A stretch of DNA of 64,000 nucleotides from Chloroflexota bacterium. Its GTDB lineage: Bacteria; Chloroflexota; Anaerolineae; Anaerolineales; VGOW01. Below, one piece after another: positions 17,060 through 31,769 of the stretch. Position numbers and translations under genes: made by a program. Where the stretch lies: NCBI GenBank assembly GCA_016197225.1, contig JACPWC010000066.1, forward strand, positions 1 to 64,000. Direction: 5' to 3'. How positions within the stretch are numbered: position 1 is the first letter of the stretch; each line of letters starts with the position of its first letter. The notes beneath the pieces are model-generated. The model worked only from the letters and a program-made list of their open reading frames with translations, had not been told where the DNA came from and ran no database searches.

Positions 17060-18919
17060 TCATCCTCCTGGCGAATCTAATCTGTTTAATTCATTCAATT
17101 CATTCAGCCTGGCTTCCGGCAAATTCCCTTGCTCATCCCATCCCCGCGCCGCGTAATATTCGTCCAGCATGTTCTGGAATTTCTCGCGGTCAATGTGATG
17201 GCCCTTCGTCGCCCGGCCCGGCATCGGATCGTCGAAGTAGCGTTTGGGCAAAGTGTCGTCGGCGCGCGTCCGGCCAAACTCCAGATTGATCTGCCGTTCG
17301 AGATCGATCACCCGCCGCCCCACTTCGCGCAGTTCAGTTTCGGCGAATTCCAGGCCGGTCACGGGGCGAATCAACTCCACGAAATGATCGTAACCCAGCA
17401 ACTTGGGGGAGTTGAAGCCGTGAGTGATGAACTTGCAAACGCCGAGACAGTCAGCTACGGCGTAGATGTCGTCGTGCCAGGCTACCATCCCGGCCTTGCC
17501 TTCGTACGAAGTCGGGTCGGCGCTTGTCTCCACGCCGAAGATTTTCATTCGCACCTCGTCGGGCAGTTTGAGGATGTCGAGCGTCGGGCGGTTGCGAAGA
17601 TGGTCCGCGCCGCGCGAGGCGACGGCAATGCCGAGGGCGAACGATTTGATATAGCGCACGTCGTGCGGATCGGACTGCGGCAGGTCTTTGACGGCGATGA
17701 GGTAGTCGGCGGCTTCGGGCGGAAAGAGGCGCTTGGCTTGGGTGCTTTCAGCCAACACGTCCCCGAAGCCACGCCGGTAAGCAATGTCGTTGATGAGCTC
17801 GGCAACGCGCTCGTAATCCCCCCACTCCAGCGGCCCGCCTGTCATCTCGTCTTTGATGAGGCCGCGTTGATACAACTCCATCGCCCAGGCGATGATCGTG
17901 CCAACCGAGGAGGCATCAAGGCCGAGGTCGTTGACGAGGTTGTTGAGAGTGATGACTTGATCAGTCGGGGCCAAGCCGATGTTTGCGCCGAGCAGGCCGA
18001 TGGTGGAATACTCCGGGCCTTCGCCGCCGAGCGTGTTGCGGTGGCGGCAGTGGACGACGCACGAGGTGCAGGCCAGCATCTTATCCGAAAACTTTTCAAT
18101 CTCAGAGGCGACGAGCGTCTCTTCAAAGAAGTTGTCCTGGCTGTTGCGAGTGCGAATCGCGCCCAGGCGGTTGCTCACTTCGTACAGAAACGGCGTGCCG
18201 AGTTTGCCGAGGACTTGAATAACCTTTGAGTCTTGCAGATACTTCGTCTGCTCTTTGCGAACTGCGCTCAATGCCGCCTTGTCGGCAACGTGGATGGGGT
18301 CGCCGCCTTTCGCGGCGATGGCCTTGAGATTTTTACTACCCATCACCGCGCCCATGCCGCCGCGCCCGGCGGTGTTCTTCAGCCCGGTCATCACCGACGC
18401 CATTCGCACCTTGTTCTCGCCCGCCGGGCCGATGACGGCGCTGACCGTGCCCGGGCCGTGCGCCGCCTTCAACATCTCTTGCGCCTGAGGCGAAGTAGTC
18501 CCCCACAAACCATTGGCTTCACGAACAGAGACGGCTCCACCTTCTAAAAGAAGATAACTCGGTCGCTCCGCCTTGCCGACGATGATCAATCGATCAAACC
18601 CGGCCTTGCGCATGGCCGCCGCGAAGAAGCCGCCGCAATTCGCGTCGCCGAGGCCGAGACTCTCCGGCGACTTGGCGCTGACGTTGAAGCGGGCGGCATT
18701 GGGCGCGATGGTTCCGGTGAGCAAACCTGCGCCGAAGATGAGCGGGTTCTCCGGGCTGAACGGATTGATGAGGCGCGGGTCGCCCGCCTGGCGCAAATAT
18801 TTGCGGAGGTAGTGCATGTTCAGCCCGCGCCCGCCGACGAAGGCTCGCGTGAGCCGTTCCGGCGTGGGCGAGATGTCAATGCGCCCCGAGGTCAGATCAA
18901 TGAAAGCAATATTTGGCAT
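17060..18919 (-). CDS. aor: Aldehyde:ferredoxin oxidoreductase (tungsten AOR family)
   Basis: A 619-residue cytosolic tungsten enzyme. The N-terminal pterin domain runs from the start (IDLTSGRIDI, FVGGRGLNM) to GRGGMGAVMGSKNLKAIA near residue 205. Cluster cysteines are CTSCVVHC near residue 290 and CLGVC near residue 500. It oxidises an aldehyde to the acid with ferredoxin. A MoaD-like protein ends exactly where it starts. Phenylacetaldehyde from phenylalanine, or benzaldehyde, would fit the operon. BamB, the class II benzoyl-CoA reductase subunit, belongs to the same family. The class I reductase here and the absence of BamC-I genes make AOR the better call. Confidence 0.9.
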   Translation of the reverse strand: MPNIAFIDLTSGRIDISPTPERLTRAFVGGRGLNMHYLRKYLRQAGDPRLINPFSPENPLIFGAGLLTGTIAPNAARFNVSAKSPESLGLGDANCGGFFAAAMRKAGFDRLIIVGKAERPSYLLLEGGAVSVREANGLWGTTSPQAQEMLKAAHGPGTVSAVIGPAGENKVRMASVMTGLKNTAGRGGMGAVMGSKNLKAIAAKGGDPIHVADKAALSAVRKEQTKYLQDSKVIQVLGKLGTPFLYEVSNRLGAIRTRNSQDNFFEETLVASEIEKFSDKMLACTSCVVHCRHRNTLGGEGPEYSTIGLLGANIGLAPTDQVITLNNLVNDLGLDASSVGTIIAWAMELYQRGLIKDEMTGGPLEWGDYERVAELINDIAYRRGFGDVLAESTQAKRLFPPEAADYLIAVKDLPQSDPHDVRYIKSFALGIAVASRGADHLRNRPTLDILKLPDEVRMKIFGVETSADPTSYEGKAGMVAWHDDIYAVADCLGVCKFITHGFNSPKLLGYDHFVELIRPVTGLEFAETELREVGRRVIDLERQINLEFGRTRADDTLPKRYFDDPMPGRATKGHHIDREKFQNMLDEYYAARGWDEQGNLPEARLNELNELNRLDSPGG

Positions 18920-24002: not shown

Positions 24003-24053
24003 AATTCTCCAATCATCCAATCTCTAGAGATCAGAGAATTAGAGATTGGAGAT
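24003..24053. repeat. Low-complexity hairpin of GAGATT words
   Basis: AATTCTCCAATCATCC and ATCTCT face AGAGATCAGAGAATTAGAG and TTGGAGATT. The gap between the dehydrogenase and amidohydrolase genes is filled by inverted degenerate copies of an ATTGGAGA-like word, as at 21271-21320. Confidence 0.65.
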
Positions 24054-25105
24054 TACGGCACGATGACCGACCGAATCCCCTCGCCGCGCCGCAATGTGTC
24101 GAAGGCGGTGTTGATCTCGTCGAGCGGAAATTTGGCCGTCACCAGTTCAGTCACTTTGATCTTGCCCTGCGCCGCCAAATCCAGCACACGCGGGTAATCC
24201 ACCGTGCGGCAGCCGAGTGAGCAGATGATCTCGATCTCGCGGAACATCACTTTGCCAGTGTTGAGACTCATCGGCTTGTCAGAAGAGCCGACCACTACAA
24301 ACCGACCTCCGGTTCGCACGGCGCCGAAGGCTTGCTCTTGCGTCGCCGGGTTGCCAATGCACTCAAAGGCCACGTCCGCGCCGCCGCCGGTCAACCGGCG
24401 CAGTTCTTTGTCCAACCGCTCGACCGATTTGGGATTGACCGTTGTCTTCGCGCCAAGTTTCTTTGCCCAGTCCAACTTGTGGTCGGCGATGTCCACGGCA
24501 ATCACTTGCCCGCCCACCGCCGCCGCGATCTGCACACAGTTCAAGCCAATGCCGCCGCACCCAAAGACGACGACAGCGTCGCCCGGTTTCACCTGGCCGC
24601 GATTGACGACGGCATGAAATGGAGTCGTCGTCGCGTCGGCGATGATGGCGCCCTCGACGAGCGGGATTTCGGGCGGGAGGGCAATGGCGACATCCGCCGG
24701 CGCCAGCACATATTCGGCGTAAGCGCCGTCAGTGCTGCTGCCGAAGAAGGCCAGGTTTTCGCACACGTTCTCGCGCCCGAGGCGGCACATGCGGCAGTGA
24801 CCGCAGCCGTACACAGCAGGCAAAATTATCTGATCGCCCTCTTTCCACCCCCCCCTTCCCCCCCCGTTAATAACAGGGGGGGTGAGGGGGGGGCCGACTC
24901 GAGCCACTGTGCCTGAAGCCTCGTGGCCCAGCACCAGCGGCGGCTTCTTCATGGTCGGCACACCGTGATCGATGAAGTGCAGGTCAGTGTGACACACGCC
25001 GCACCCGGCCACCTTCACCACGATCTCGCCCGGTTTCGGAGTCGGCGTGGGAATCTCTTCAATCACAAGTGGCTGATGCGCTCCGTGAAAGATGGCGGCT
25101 TTCAT
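24053..25105 (-). CDS. had: 6-hydroxycyclohex-1-ene-1-carbonyl-CoA dehydrogenase-like alcohol dehydrogenase
   Basis: A 350-residue zinc-dependent medium-chain dehydrogenase. Cys38-His39 (GVCHTDL) and GHE at 60-62 bind catalytic zinc. [16 protein letters not shown] holds structural zinc, and [14 protein letters not shown] binds NAD. HTDLHF..GVPT and the operon place fit the Had/BzdX enzyme, which oxidises the hydroxyl made by the dienoyl-CoA hydratase. Residues of about 72-87 ([16 protein letters not shown]) are an in-frame insert encoded by a C/G-rich palindrome. I chose the start at 25105 (GGAG 6 nt upstream), which overlaps the hydratase stop. Other alcohol dehydrogenases are similar, so the assignment leans on context. 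Confidence 0.85.
24846..24893. repeat. Poly-C/poly-G palindrome inserted in frame in the had gene
   Basis: Runs of seven to eight C, then GTTA-A-TAAC, then runs of seven G form an imperfect palindrome of about 48 bp inside coding sequence. The encoded residues interrupt the usual [12 protein letters not shown]...GD stretch of alcohol dehydrogenases. Length is a multiple of three, so the frame survives. Confidence 0.8.
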
Positions 25106-25878
25106 TTGTGTCTCCAAACCGGCGCGCGTTTTTCGATGAACGAGGCCACACCTTCGCCTGCGTCGGCGGTGGACATCAAGTCTTCGAGATACAGCTTTTC
25201 CATCGCCGGTAAACGCTCTGCGGCCCAGCCGTCTGCGCCGAGCCGGGCGGCGCGCTTGCCGGCGCGCAGAGCCGCCGCGCTCAAGCCGCGCAGTTTGCCG
25301 ATGTATTGCTCGGCGACTTGATCGAGCTCACCAGCCGGGACGGCACGGTTGATCAACCCAATTCGGGCCGCCTCTACGGCATTGACCGTGTCTCCAATAA
25401 ACAGCATCTCCGCCGCGCGGCGGTAGCCGACGAGACCAGGGAGGCGCAGGGCCGCAATTGGTGCGATGGTCGCCAATTTGATCTCCGGCTGGCCGAAGTT
25501 TGCGCCATCTGCCGCAATGATGAGGTCGCAACACAAAGCCAATTCGCACCCGCCGCCGAGGGCGTGGCCGTGAACGATAGCAAGAGTTGGAATCGGGAAG
25601 TCGGCCAGGGCAACACAGACCCGGTCGAAGAGCGGAATCATGTCTCCCACTTTGTCGGCGGTATGATCGGCCACGTCCACTCCGGCGGAGAACATGCGTA
25701 GCGTTTTTTCGGCGCACAAGACCAGCAGGCGCAGAGTCGAGTCCTGGGCGGCGGCTTCGAGCGCCGAGTCCATCTCGCGGAGCATGGCGATGTTGACGAC
25801 GTTGAGCGGCGGTCTCTTTAATGTGAGGCGGCCCACCCCGTCGCTTGATTGCCACTCGACAAATTTCAGTTCAGTCAT
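25102..25878 (-). CDS. dch: Cyclohexa-1,5-dienecarbonyl-CoA hydratase (crotonase family)
   Basis: A 258-residue crotonase. [23 protein letters not shown] is the Dch-like N-terminus. SAGVDVADH (oxyanion loop), [22 protein letters not shown] and [24 protein letters not shown] form the active-site region. It adds water to the dienoyl-CoA product of benzoyl-CoA reductase. It overlaps both neighbours by ATGA, which indicates tight coupling with the dehydrogenase that takes its product. Confidence 0.9.
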
Positions 25879-26279
25879 TTTGTGATGTGGGTTGCTTCCT
25901 GAATGGCTCGAACGACTGCCGTCACCGGGAGAACGCCTTTATCGAAGAGCTGGATCGAGCCGTTGTTCTTGATGGTGAGACTCACCCGGTGATCGAACAG
26001 CCCGTCATCCGCCGTCACGCACTCGATCTGTGAAGCAGGAATTGAAACGAGCAGGTGGCTTCCATCGTAAGCCACGTTCGGAGCGTCGAGGTCAAGCGCA
26101 TAGGCCACCGCCTCGCAGTCCACCGGCCCGATGACGACTCGTTCGAACTGACTGCGAGCGACCTCGGCCGCAAACAACACCCGCCGGTCGGTGACGCAAA
26201 GTTGGCCGTGATACCGCCAGCCAGCCGGTGGGATGTAGTCAACAGGCCAATTGCCAAGAACCCGTTCGCCTTCTTCCAT
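25875..26279 (-). CDS. PH/GRAM-like protein of unknown function in the benzoyl-CoA operon
   Basis: A 134-residue soluble protein without membrane segments. WRYHGQLCVTDRRVLFAAEV and the alternating beta pattern that follows resemble bacterial PH or GRAM-like domains. I chose the ATG at 26279 because AAGGAG lies 8 nt upstream; an upstream extension would be basic and unstructured. It sits between the reductase ATPase subunit and the dienoyl-CoA hydratase and overlaps the latter by 4 bp. Operon position suggests an accessory role in dearomatisation. I cannot name a function. Confidence 0.7.
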   Translation of the reverse strand: MEEGERVLGNWPVDYIPPAGWRYHGQLCVTDRRVLFAAEVARSQFERVVIGPVDCEAVAYALDLDAPNVAYDGSHLLVSIPASQIECVTADDGLFDHRVSLTIKNNGSIQLFDKGVLPVTAVVRAIQEATHITK

Positions 26280-26367
26280 CGGGAAACGCTCCTTAGTCGC
26301 CGAGGGCGACTTCGCCTTATGTTGCCGCGATTTCAATCGCCGGAAACCAAAAACTTTGACGGGTACT

Positions 26368-27200
26368 CTACGCTAACTGCTTCTCATCTTCCTCCGCCGC
26401 GCTTTGCTCGTTCAGTTTGTGCAGGCGATGCTTGGCCAGCAGGGCCGCCCCCAGCGCCGCCACGTATTGCACCGAGTCGCCTTCCGGCACGTTTACCTTC
26501 ATCCCCAGTTTGTCCTGCACCACTTTGCCATTGTCTCAAAACGCAGAATGCCGCCCACCAGGGTGAACTCCGGTTCCATTTGCACCCGCTTCATCAACTG
26601 CACCGAGCGATCCACGAGAGAGGCGATGGCCCCTTGCATGATGTCTGCCGGGGCGCTGCCCTGCGAGAGGCAGTTGATTACTTCCGACTCGGCGAACACG
26701 GCGCACACACCGGAGATGGGAACGAGAGCTTTGGAAGTCGCCGCCAGCGGCCCGATCTCTTCGGTGTTGAAGCCCATGTATCGCGCCGTCTTTTCCAAAA
26801 ACGCGCCGGTGCCGGCCGCGCACTTGTCGTTGAGGCGGAACGATTTCACCTTGCCCGACTCGTCGAGGCGGCTGGCCTTCATCGTTTGCCCGCCCACGTC
26901 GAGAATCGTCATCGTGTTCGGAAAGAGGAAGCGCGCGCCGCGCGCCGTCGCCGTTAGGTCAGTGACGTTGACGTTGCGAATGGCAGTTTGAAAACGGCCA
27001 TAGCCGGTGCTGGCGATGTAAGTGATATCGGTTTGTTGAAGCTCGGCCTGGGTCAGCGCCTGTCCCAGCACCCGCTCCCCGGCCTCGTTGAGCTTGAAGC
27101 CGGTCTTCACCAGCCCGCGCCCGACGATTTGATCGTCTTCACTTAGAATGATGGCTTTGGTGTACGTCGAGCCAACGTCAATGCCCGCTGTGTAGTTCAT
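26368..27200 (-). pseudogene. Benzoyl-CoA reductase ASKHA ATPase subunit, frameshifted near the C-terminus
   Basis: Residues 1-235 or so read as a BcrA/BcrD-family activator ATPase: AGIDVGSTYTKAIIL (phosphate loop), [26 protein letters not shown] and ISGVCAVFAESEV (the two cluster cysteines). The frame then breaks at about 26523-26529. As written it ends after a few aberrant residues (...KWCRTNWG). Moving one base back restores VVQDKLGMKVNVPEG and VAALGAALLAKHRL to a stop at 26368, matching the neighbouring paralogue. A lost A in a short A-run, an assembly error, or -1 slippage on AAG would each explain it. The total length of 833 bp is one short of a multiple of three. Confidence 0.88.
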
Positions 27201-27207
27201 TGCTTGC

Positions 27208-28026
27208 CTACGCTTTCTCGGCCACGCCGTCTGCCGGGACGCGGCCAGCCATGATTCGATCCATTGCAAACAGCGCCGCGCCGAGCGCGCCCATGTAATG
27301 CGAGTCCTCGCTGACGTTCACCGGAAAGCCGATCATCTCGTTGAGGACGGTGACGACGCCAATGTTGCGGGTGACGCCGCCGGTAAAAGTCACCTCCGGC
27401 TCGATGCCCACCCGCCGCATCAACCCCAGCGACCGCGAGACGATGGACTGATGGACTCCCAACAGAATGTCCTCAATCTTTTTGCCTTTGCCCAGCCAGG
27501 AGACCACTTCGGACTCGGCGAAGACGGTGCAGGTGGTGCTGATCTTCACCGCCTTCTCCGCCTGCAAAGCCACCACTCCCAACTCGCCCAGCGGAATTTC
27601 CAGGGCCGCCGCCGCCGCGCCCAGAAACCGCCCGGTGCCCGCCGCGCACTTGTCGTTCATACAGAAATCAACAATCTCGCCGGTGGGGCTGACGCGGATG
27701 GCTTTGGTGTCCTGCCCGCCCATGTCCACCACCGTGCGCGTGCGGGGGAACATGTGTACCGCGCCACGCCCGTGACAGGAAATCTCCGTAATCTGCGTGT
27801 CGCCGAACGTCACCTTGTAACGGCCATAGCCTGTGCCGACGACGTACTCCACTTCGCGCTCATCAATACTTTTGCTCTTGAGCGCTTCGGCGTAAGCGTT
27901 CTCGGCGGCCAGCACCACGTTGGCCCCGGTGTCAATCAGCGCCCGGCTCACGATCTCCCGGTTCTCGTTGATGATGACGGCTTTGGTCTGCGTTGAACCT
28001 ACGTCCACACCTGCGGCGTATGCCAT
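27208..28026 (-). CDS. Benzoyl-CoA reductase ASKHA ATPase subunit (Azoarcus BzdP/Q type)
   Basis: A 272-residue activator ATPase. [15 protein letters not shown] and [12 protein letters not shown] are the phosphate motifs, [16 protein letters not shown] and [16 protein letters not shown] hold the cysteines for the inter-subunit [4Fe-4S] cluster, and [10 protein letters not shown] and [10 protein letters not shown] close the fold. It hydrolyses ATP to push electrons from ferredoxin to the BcrB/BcrC module. Both ATPase subunits here are short, as in Azoarcus BzdPQ, unlike Thauera BcrA with about 438 residues. Position suggests the P subunit, but I could not assign P versus Q safely. Confidence 0.93.
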
Positions 28027-28031
28027 GTTCT

Positions 28032-28100
28032 TCTCCCTGGGTTGTTGGGTTGTTAGATGGTTAGGTGGTGGCGAACTACCTAACCACCCAACCACCTAAC
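28032..28100. repeat. Low-complexity hairpin of GGTTAGGTGGTT words
   Basis: GGTTGTTGGGTTGTTAGATG and GTTAGGTGGTGG face CCACCCAACCACCTAACCC. Degenerate copies of a GGTTGGGTGGTTA-like word stand in inverted orientation, filling the gap between the bcrB-like and ATPase genes and reaching the bcrB stop codon. Confidence 0.75.
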
Positions 28101-29385
28101 CCGCTAACTGCTTGCGCGTCGCCAGCCCTTCAAAAAATGCGTCAATCCGATTCTTGAGTTGCGCTTCCGACACAACCCGTTTGTCCATCATGTCCGACTC
28201 GATGAATAAACTGCCTACGTCGGTTGTTTCCAACAGTCGCCGCCGGTTGTCGGCCAGACCGGTGGACACGGTGCGGCAGGATTTGATCGGGTGGTAGACG
28301 ACGCCGTCCACTTTGTACGGCCCGACCATGTCAATCAACGTCTGGTCCTGAAAGAACATGCTGTCCATCGCGTGCCGGACGCTGATGAGCACGCCCTCGG
28401 CCAAACTGTCCAGCGGGCGGCTCAAATCGTATTCGTAGCCCAAATTGGTGCCGCCCGAGGCGAACCAGAGGTAAGTCGAACTGACAAACGCCCCGCCCCA
28501 TTCGGCGAACATCTCGTTGAACCGCCGGAAGATCGGATAGCACGGCACGCCGACGAAGATCAGGCGATACTTTTCATCGTGCAGGGTGCCGAGGCCGTGC
28601 GCCGATTTGTATTCCATCTCTTCAACGACGCGCTTGAAGTAGGCGCTGCCCGCCGCCGTGCCCCGAAAGCCGTTGGACATTCCCAGATACACCGTGCCGT
28701 CGGTGACGGCGTTGAACACAGCCGGCGTGCTCTGGTTCAATTCCAGAACCCGCTTCCAGGCCCGGCTCATGTCGTTGGCGTGGCCTAACACCTCCCGCAA
28801 TTTGTCAATGTCGAACTTTTTGCCCGACACTTCCTCGCACAAAGTGATCAATTCTTTGAGTTGAGCCGCCACGTAGCGTTTGTCATTCTCAAAGTCGGGG
28901 TGGCCGGGCCAGGTTTGCGTGCCAGCCGCCCGGCTTCCCGGCACGTCCAGGGTGAAGATCGGAATGTGGTACATGCGCTCCCAAATCTCCGCCCACTTGA
29001 CGTACGTGTTGCAGGCGTTGGTGTACACGGCCAGCGACGGTTTTGGTATTCGCCCCATCGGGTGCTCGCCGCCGCGAAGTTGCATAGCGACGTCGGCTTT
29101 CACGTAGCCGCAAATGTCGGGCGAGTAGCCATAATCTTCGGCGGTGTTGAGGTATTCGTGGGCCACGCGCCGCACCGCCGTTTGCAAGGCGTTGATCTCC
29201 GGGAAGACGGTGTGAAAGTCAAAGGTGCGAAGCACTTCGGCCATGCTCCCCATCACGAACACATAAGCCGCCTTCTCGCCCCGCTCCGGCGCTTCGGTCA
29301 GCGTTTGAAACCACTCGCGGAACAACTGCGCCCCTTCTTTGGCCCCGCGCCCGACAATGCTTTCTGCGATTTGCCCTTCACTCAT
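28096..29385 (-). CDS. bcrB: Benzoyl-CoA reductase subunit B (BzdO type)
   Basis: A 429-residue member of the 2-hydroxyacyl-CoA dehydratase D-component family. NTAEDYGYSPDICGYVKADV and TNACNTYVKWAE carry cysteines. KVDGVVYHPIKSCRTVSTGLAD holds the C-terminal cysteine typical of BcrB. With BcrC it forms the iron-sulfur module that binds benzoyl-CoA and performs the two-electron ring reduction. Length is normal for BcrB/BzdO. It lies between the C subunit and the two ATPase subunits, the order C-B-ATPase-ATPase of bzdNOPQ. Confidence 0.94.
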   Translation of the reverse strand: MSEGQIAESIVGRGAKEGAQLFREWFQTLTEAPERGEKAAYVFVMGSMAEVLRTFDFHTVFPEINALQTAVRRVAHEYLNTAEDYGYSPDICGYVKADVAMQLRGGEHPMGRIPKPSLAVYTNACNTYVKWAEIWERMYHIPIFTLDVPGSRAAGTQTWPGHPDFENDKRYVAAQLKELITLCEEVSGKKFDIDKLREVLGHANDMSRAWKRVLELNQSTPAVFNAVTDGTVYLGMSNGFRGTAAGSAYFKRVVEEMEYKSAHGLGTLHDEKYRLIFVGVPCYPIFRRFNEMFAEWGGAFVSSTYLWFASGGTNLGYEYDLSRPLDSLAEGVLISVRHAMDSMFFQDQTLIDMVGPYKVDGVVYHPIKSCRTVSTGLADNRRRLLETTDVGSLFIESDMMDKRVVSEAQLKNRIDAFFEGLATRKQLAG

Positions 29386-29486: not shown

Positions 29487-30653
29487 TTACGCAAACAGCA
29501 AATTCTCCACAAACGTCTCAAGCTGAATTTGCAGATGATCGAAGCTGGTCATGCTCTCTTCAAATTCGCTGACGAAGTAAGGAATGCCTGCCTCGTCCAA
29601 CGCTTTCGCGTAAGCGACCTGCTCGTCCAGCCCCGGCTCGCACATCTTGGCCGCCGTAATAATGGCCGCGCTGGCGTTTGCTTCTTTCACCCGCTTGAGC
29701 AACATCACTTCTTTCGGCTTCCGCAGGTCGTGTTGCACCGGGCTGTACGACGATTTCTCCAGATAAGCCTCAGCCAGATTGAGAAGCGGGTCGCCCTCCG
29801 TCGGCACATCTTCCAAAATGTAGCGTAAGCCAATCAGCAAATCGTCGTCCACCACGTAACAGGATTGGGCGATGACCCGCAGTAAGTCGAGCGGCGGTTG
29901 CTCGCAGAAGCCGCCCTCGAACACGACTCGAATGCGGTCTTGCGGTTTGGCGGTGCGGGCCTCAATTTGCGGAATGACAGCTCTAAGCAATTCGTTGTGC
30001 TCTTCGCGCGGGATCAGCCCGCCCACCGACATCAACACATAGGCCTCATCCGCCGAAAGTAGCCACGGCGTTTCGCGCTTAATCGCGTAAAGCCGGTGCA
30101 GGAGCCGCCGATTTTCGTTGAAGACGGCGATGGAATTCCGCAAATCGTCATCAGTGACGGCCCGACCGGCGATGGTTTCAATGTCGCGCTTGAGCCGGTT
30201 GTACTCGTCACGCAAATACTGGGCCGAGTGTCTGGAGTTCGCGTTCTGCGGCAGGTAAAGAATCTGGCAAGGGTAAGAGAAGTTGCGGCCCCAAACCGCC
30301 GCCAGGTTGCGGGCGGCGTCGCAAATGGGGTGGGAGACGAACATGTCCAGCTTGACGCGATCACTCAGAGCAAGTTCAAGTGAGGTCTTCAAAATCGAGC
30401 ACAGGTACGAACCGAACCGCGCCTCAGCCTGCCGGGCCTCAATTTGCGCCCCGCGCATTTTGAGCGGCAACATCCCGGCGGCGTGGGCAATCTCTTCCGG
30501 GAAGTACACCTGAAAGTGCCCCACCACTTTTCCGCCCGCCTCCCGCCAGCGCTTCACCGTCGGAAAGTCCGGGTCTTCCACCAACTCCCGGCACATATAA
30601 AGAGCGTCCTCTAAAGAACTGTAAGGTTTGCCGTCCAATACTCGTATAGCCAT
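29487..30653 (-). CDS. bcrC: Benzoyl-CoA reductase subunit C (BzdN type)
   Basis: A 388-residue protein of the same D-component family as Bcr[42 protein letters not shown] and [16 protein letters not shown] are the conserved N-terminal stretches with cluster cysteines. [17 protein letters not shown] and the C-terminal MCEPGLDEQ add further cysteines. It forms the substrate-binding half with BcrB. It is the second gene of the operon, 12 bp below the ring-cleaving hydrolase. Confidence 0.93.
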
Positions 30654-30665
30654 TCGACAGGTCTC

Positions 30666-31715
30666 CTACTCACTGTGGCCGTTTAATGCCGCGCCGCACT
30701 TGCCGCAATACTCGAACTCATCCGGCAAATATTTTGTGCCGCACCTCGCGCACTCCCGCGCAAACGGCCCCCACATAAACTCCGACGACTCGCCCGCCGC
30801 CGCCTTCTGCCGGAGTTTGACGTAGTCAGCCGGACGTTTCTCCACAAAGGCGTTCATCCCCTCCATCGGCTCCCACGAGGTGTAATGGATTGATAGCCAG
30901 TCGCGGGCGTGGCCGATTGTCTGATGCCAGGCGAAGTCCTTCCAGAAGTTGACCTGTTGCTTGGTGTATCGCGTGCACTCCGGGAACTTCTGGATCAATT
31001 CCTCGCACAGGGCATTCACTGCCTCGTCCAACCTGGTGAGATCAATGCTGTAGCCGTCTTGCCCCTTCTGGGCCTTGACGATTTGTTCGGGGGTGGCTCT
31101 GGTGATAAACGTTCCATCTTTCTTCAACGACGGCACAACCTCGTTGACGAGTCCCCACTCCAGTGCTTGATAGGCCGGGACGCGGCGATTGGTCATCAAC
31201 ATATATCGCGCCCGGCGGTCGCCGACGAACATGGGTAGCCACTGCGTGGCCCCACCCGCCGCCACACTGCCAACGCCTGTTCCAACCTGACCCACGTAAG
31301 CGTGCTCGGCGATGATGGACAAATCGCAAGCCAGATGGCTCTCATTGCCGCCGCCCACGGCCATGCCGTTCAGCCGGGCGATCACCGGCTTGCCGGTGTT
31401 TAAGATGCTTTCGATGTAGGCGCTGAACAGGCCCATGTACTTCCAGTAGTCTCGCGGCGAGCGCGTATATTTGGCCGCATACTCTTTTACGTCGCCGCCA
31501 GTGCAAAAGGCCCGGTCGCCCGCGCCGGTATAAACGATGACGGCCACTTCGTCGTCGAACGATGCCTGACGAAAAGCGGCGGCCAGTTCGGCGAGGGTGG
31601 CGGTGCTGTAGGCGTTGTACGCCTGCGGGCGGTTCAACGTGATCCGCGCAACCCAATCACGTTTCTCGTAAAGAATCTCGGCGAAGTCAGTTCGTTCGGC
31701 GATCAACGTATTCAT
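30666..31715 (-). CDS. oah: 6-oxocyclohex-1-ene-1-carbonyl-CoA hydrolase
   Basis: A 349-residue ring-cleaving crotonase of the BamA/BzdY/Oah type. NRPQAYNAYSTATLAELA, CTGGDVKEYAAKYTRSPRDY, NGMAVGGGNESHLACDL and QVGTGVGSVAAGGATQWLP match this family closely. It adds two waters and cleaves the alicyclic ring to 3-hydroxypimelyl-CoA. The C-terminus has a zinc-ribbon-like tail (CARCG and CGKCG). I chose the ATG at 31715 with GGGGAG 3-4 nt upstream over a TTG seven codons earlier. It is the first gene after the operon promoter, 55 bp past the leader terminator. BamA-type genes are used as markers of anaerobic aromatic degradation. Confidence 0.95.
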   Translation of the reverse strand: MNTLIAERTDFAEILYEKRDWVARITLNRPQAYNAYSTATLAELAAAFRQASFDDEVAVIVYTGAGDRAFCTGGDVKEYAAKYTRSPRDYWKYMGLFSAYIESILNTGKPVIARLNGMAVGGGNESHLACDLSIIAEHAYVGQVGTGVGSVAAGGATQWLPMFVGDRRARYMLMTNRRVPAYQALEWGLVNEVVPSLKKDGTFITRATPEQIVKAQKGQDGYSIDLTRLDEAVNALCEELIQKFPECTRYTKQQVNFWKDFAWHQTIGHARDWLSIHYTSWEPMEGMNAFVEKRPADYVKLRQKAAAGESSEFMWGPFARECARCGTKYLPDEFEYCGKCGAALNGHSE

Positions 31716-31769
31716 ATGCTCCCCGGCCTTTAACAAACAAGAGAATATTGATGGTTTTACTCGTAAATA

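Follow-up and report, generated by a model that had tools for sequence, protein, structure and literature searches.

The question raised by this locus is whether the gene for the delta ATPase subunit of a benzoyl-CoA reductase, which helps to power anaerobic aromatic-ring breakdown, is truly broken, is rescued during translation or merely appears broken because one base is missing from the assembly. In the window, the whole stretch of 64,000 nucleotides that was analysed, the minus-strand gene starting at 27200 stays open to a TGA at 26501-26499, ending ...GGILRFETMAKWCRTNWG* (...LVGGILRFETMAKWCRTNWG), such that the product runs out of frame immediately after ...FETMAK. The features at the break are:

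26499..27200, minus strand: MbdP-like (delta) ATPase, present as a truncated 233-aa open frame, PF01869, with residues 1-226 genuine, followed by WCRTNWG and TGA
26520..26531, minus strand: frameshift site ATGGCAAAGTGG, spanning codons 224-227, with its AAA at 26526-26524 and a length one base short of that in all relatives
26368..26523, minus strand: the 51 C-terminal codons that are lost, readable in the -1 frame (VVQDKLGMKVNVPEG...EDEKQLA) and followed by stop TAG 26370-26368, conserved in 80/80 orthologues
26368..26502, minus strand: 44-aa frame that might be re-initiated, with an ATG (26502-26500) overlapping the premature TGA (26501-26499) as ATGA

Taken together, the findings point to a probable consensus or assembly error, or a minor strain variant present in the consensus, with the real population encoding an ordinary 277-residue protein.

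Identity of the broken gene

The truncated protein matches the profile families PF01869 and TIGR00241. The earlier note had named it the second ATPase subunit of benzoyl-CoA reductase, and rightly so, as the best solved match is MbdP and the three partner genes are adjacent. With the intact orthologue from the close genome G004 as query, MbdP was the best match among solved structures (296 bits), ahead of both MbdQ (200) and the free activators HadI (167) and HgdC (164), with residues 1-268 of 277 aligning to residues 1-268 of MbdP, the delta subunit of 3-methylbenzoyl-CoA reductase (PDB 9gai chain C; E 2e-87). The 2-hydroxyacyl-CoA dehydratase activators HgdC (1hux) and HadI (4eht) belong to the same ATPase family (PF01869, TIGR00241) but are far weaker matches (E about 1e-47). 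Activators of the HgdC/HadI type work as separate homodimers, unlike reductase subunits. Here the gene lies beside those for the three remaining subunits (O, N, Q), and the same partners as in the MbdP system, MbdQ, MbdO and MbdN, are the best matches of the adjoining genes:

27208..28026, minus strand: intact first ATPase subunit, MbdQ-like (alpha), 9gai_D MbdQ E 2.5e-125
28096..29385, minus strand: MbdO-like (beta) reductase subunit, 9g87_A MbdO E 4e-160
29487..30653, minus strand: MbdN-like (gamma) reductase subunit, 9g87_B MbdN E 4e-167

The gene differs from MbdP in that its reading frame breaks past residue 226, leaving 233 aa as encoded, the last 7 of them altered, in place of a complete ATPase fold of ~270 residues, while orthologue lengths were 263 aa or longer in 80/80. 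Judged from its sequence, the broken gene is assigned to the delta subunit (MbdP-like) of an Mbd-type class I benzoyl-CoA reductase. As none of the reductase subunits reached the bcr/bzd equivalog cut-offs of NCBIfam, it is from the neighbouring genes that the substrate for ATP-dependent reduction, probably benzoyl-CoA or 3-methylbenzoyl-CoA, is suggested.

The frameshift and the missing base

Picked up at 26523, the -1 frame reads VVQDKLGMKVNVPEGDSVQYVAALGAALLAKHRLHKLNEQSAAEEDEKQLA (VVQDKLGMKVNVPEG...ALGAALLA) and is closed by a stop at 26370-26368. Joined to residues 1-226 it gives a protein of 277 residues, identical in length to the intact G004 orthologue (record VGOW01000004.1) and 88% identical to it end to end. 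This full-length alignment, together with alignment to 80/80 fetched orthologues, indicates that the tail is the true C-terminus rather than a chance open frame and confirms the frameshift reported from the sequence alone. The -1 slip on the AAG codon that had been proposed indeed yields MAKVVQ; the A run, however, had been placed at 26525-26528 and is actually three bases long (26524-26526, plus-strand numbering). Nor is the "one more A" of the earlier note required, since GC+N+AAA+GTG encodes Ala-Lys-Val for any N. The codons at the site are GCG AAA GTG in G004, GCC CGG GTG in G002 and GCG CGC GTG in G006, and across twelve genes of the region just 7.6% of Ala codons are GCA. In keeping with the G004 codons and the rarity of GCA, the lost base may be the wobble base of Ala225, a candidate on a par with an A. 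As any base between GC and AAAG restores Ala-Lys-Val, inspection of the reads should not stop at the A run.

Conservation and selection

The comparison with close relatives that had been suggested as a check was carried out on five close genomes of the same genus or order (G004, G002, G006, G026 and G001, the closest being G004 at 88% amino acid identity) and on 80 named loci from phyla that include Chloroflexi, Acidobacteria, Gemmatimonadetes and Planctomycetes. All of them cross the site intact in one open frame, making the frameshift private to this draft genome. A direct search of viral contigs found neither version of the frameshift site. The lost part carries residues that are invariant in a 27-orthologue alignment (Q245, A249, G251, A252 and R259); of these, G251 and R259 also hold without exception in the 80 loci, and Q245 in 79/80. 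The tail also has Ser243, a residue shared by none of the 80 homologues.

In tail codons 227-265, short stretches for which the numbers are rough, comparison with G004 gave dS 1.26 and dN 0.098 (dN/dS about 0.08) and comparison with G006 dS 0.88 and dN 0.149 (dN/dS 0.17), with dS 0.96 and dN 0.215 (dN/dS 0.22) between intact G004 and intact G006, suggesting that the tail was constrained until very recently. The other pathway genes had dN/dS of 0.05-0.16 against relatives, mostly no higher than between intact relatives. The relaxed selection past the lesion and in partner genes that would mark an established pseudogene was not found, and with the tail and pathway genes still under strong purifying selection the lesion is either an artefact or very recent.

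Frame breaks elsewhere in the assembly

The window and 40 further stretches of the genome were compared with G004 and other relatives, with apparent splits that were overlapping-frame shadows set aside, giving about 132 kb of comparable coding sequence in 133 stretches of 60 aa or more. Four frame-split genes were found in the focal genome, the present site and three others, against about one gene, in a relative, in the reverse comparison (163 stretches, the antisense shadow of the present site excluded), indicating scattered indels in this assembly, be they errors or genuine. L203:17848-18422 has a one-base loss near 17990 (GGCC-CGCC vs GGCCGCGCC in G004) that shifts the last 47 residues. On contig 5, L150:5117-6735 and L150:8717-9464, about 4 kb apart, have out-of-frame deletions of about 200-400 bases relative to G004, which may represent either local misassembly or real decay. 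Nothing distinguishes the delta ATPase indel from the other sporadic indels of the assembly.

Error, loss or rescue

The continuous frame of the tail in all relatives checked, the low dN/dS of the tail and of the other pathway genes, the want of a backup ATPase and the presence in the same assembly of another single-base loss (L203) and two out-of-frame deletions (L150) favour an error or minor variant, such that the one-base deletion in the delta (MbdP-like) ATPase gene would be confined to this assembled genome while the base would be present in most cells and the ordinary protein encoded. Against an error, a run of three A is not a typical homopolymer error site, the much longer C and G runs at 24848-24893 are kept in frame, the remaining comparable genes of the window, about 27 kb, show no second frame break, and real single-base deletions give an identical signature.

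A true and very recent loss-of-function deletion in this lineage is possible but less likely. The truncated delta subunit would retain both conserved cysteines and most nucleotide motifs while lacking the C-terminal 51 residues, the reductase would not be energised and the aromatic pathway would be dead or dying. The lesion is present in the sequence as given, the missing residues include the five that are invariant in the family, further genes are disrupted in the same genome, the tail carries the unique Ser243 and the genome holds no spare ATPase paralogue, just the two window genes. A search for a backup ATPase elsewhere in the genome gave nothing else above the cut-off, a further candidate on contig 65 being one weak N-terminal match below it, and the idea of a backup was rejected. 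In the absence of a backup a true old loss should have relaxed selection on the pathway, but strong purifying selection persists on the tail and all pathway genes, and the frame is unbroken in the remaining reductase genes and in the genes downstream. The lesion would disable dearomatisation only if living cells really lack the base.

IS3-family transposases are known for programmed -1 frameshifting at A-AAG, and this tetramer is likewise found at the break. Two routes by which a real deletion could be rescued have been considered. A -1 slip on A-AAG, where the Lys tRNA could re-pair on AAA, would give MAKVVQ, and coupled re-initiation at the ATGA overlap would give a 44-residue piece that complements the truncated subunit. 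The conservation of the tail would accord with either route. Such rescue is nevertheless very improbable, as no relative checked has a frameshift at the site, a heptameric slippery site is absent, the downstream RNA is less structured than shuffled sequences in pseudoknot-free folding (z +1.30 and +0.65) and the ATG is a plain internal Met codon shared by G004 and G002, whose frame is intact. Unlike the IS3-family sites, there is no conserved shift, no stimulatory structure was found and the relatives need none, and with intact relatives and RNA folding against it a programmed frameshift was rejected. A search of the literature on this reductase type and on A-AAG frameshifting found nothing bearing on the site. 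The least probable proposal is that the deletion is both real and fixed, with the delta ATPase made by an inefficient -1 slip or as a two-piece subunit by coupled re-initiation, in which case the activity of an oxygen-sensitive, ATP-costly reductase would be set by translational rescue.

The causes listed in the earlier note (error, recoding, rescue) were the right ones to consider but are not equally probable: recoding is very unlikely given the intact relatives, the lack of unusual RNA structure past the site, the purifying selection and the confinement of the frameshift to this draft genome, leaving an error or a very recent mutation. This is an ordinary private one-base deletion and not a new decoding mechanism. 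While of little significance alone, it illustrates how one base of a draft assembly can give a complete pathway for aromatic degradation the look of a dead one, and as such reads would be needed before the pathway is called absent or recoded here. A real loss would capture a pathway newly switched off in one population. Peptides from the tail such as VNVPEGDSVQYVAALGAALLAK would be a mark of its translation, with MAKVV-spanning peptides indicating an intact or slipped frame.

Gene neighbourhood

Three further genes of the pathway lie on either side of the reductase genes:

30666..31736, minus strand: 6-oxocyclohex-1-ene-1-carbonyl-CoA hydrolase-like (Oah), best match TIGR03200, under the curated cut-off
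25102..25878, minus strand: cyclohexa-1,5-dienecarbonyl-CoA hydratase-like (Dch), best match TIGR03189, under the curated cut-off
24053..25117, minus strand: 6-hydroxycyclohex-1-ene-1-carbonyl-CoA dehydrogenase-like (Had), best match TIGR03201, under the curated cut-off

A 153-aa open frame (25875-26336, minus strand), situated between the Dch-like gene and the broken ATPase gene, is seen in this genome only and has no Pfam or NCBIfam match and no homologue in 40 relatives or 300 genomes of the phylum. The Had-like gene contains, in frame, a C/G-run palindrome at 24847-24896 (CCCCCCC..CCCCCCCC GTTAATAACA GGGGGGG..GGGGGGGG), which sits in a loop that varies in length and sequence among relatives and whose core has one weak second copy in the genome.

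Mbd-type class I gene sets (Q, O, N and P together; L053-L132) occur widely among uncultured members of Chloroflexi, Acidobacteria, Gemmatimonadetes, Planctomycetes and further groups. Q, O and N are kept in 73-80 of the 80 homologous loci, and Oah-, Dch- or Had-like genes were present within the fetched flanks of 24-37/80.
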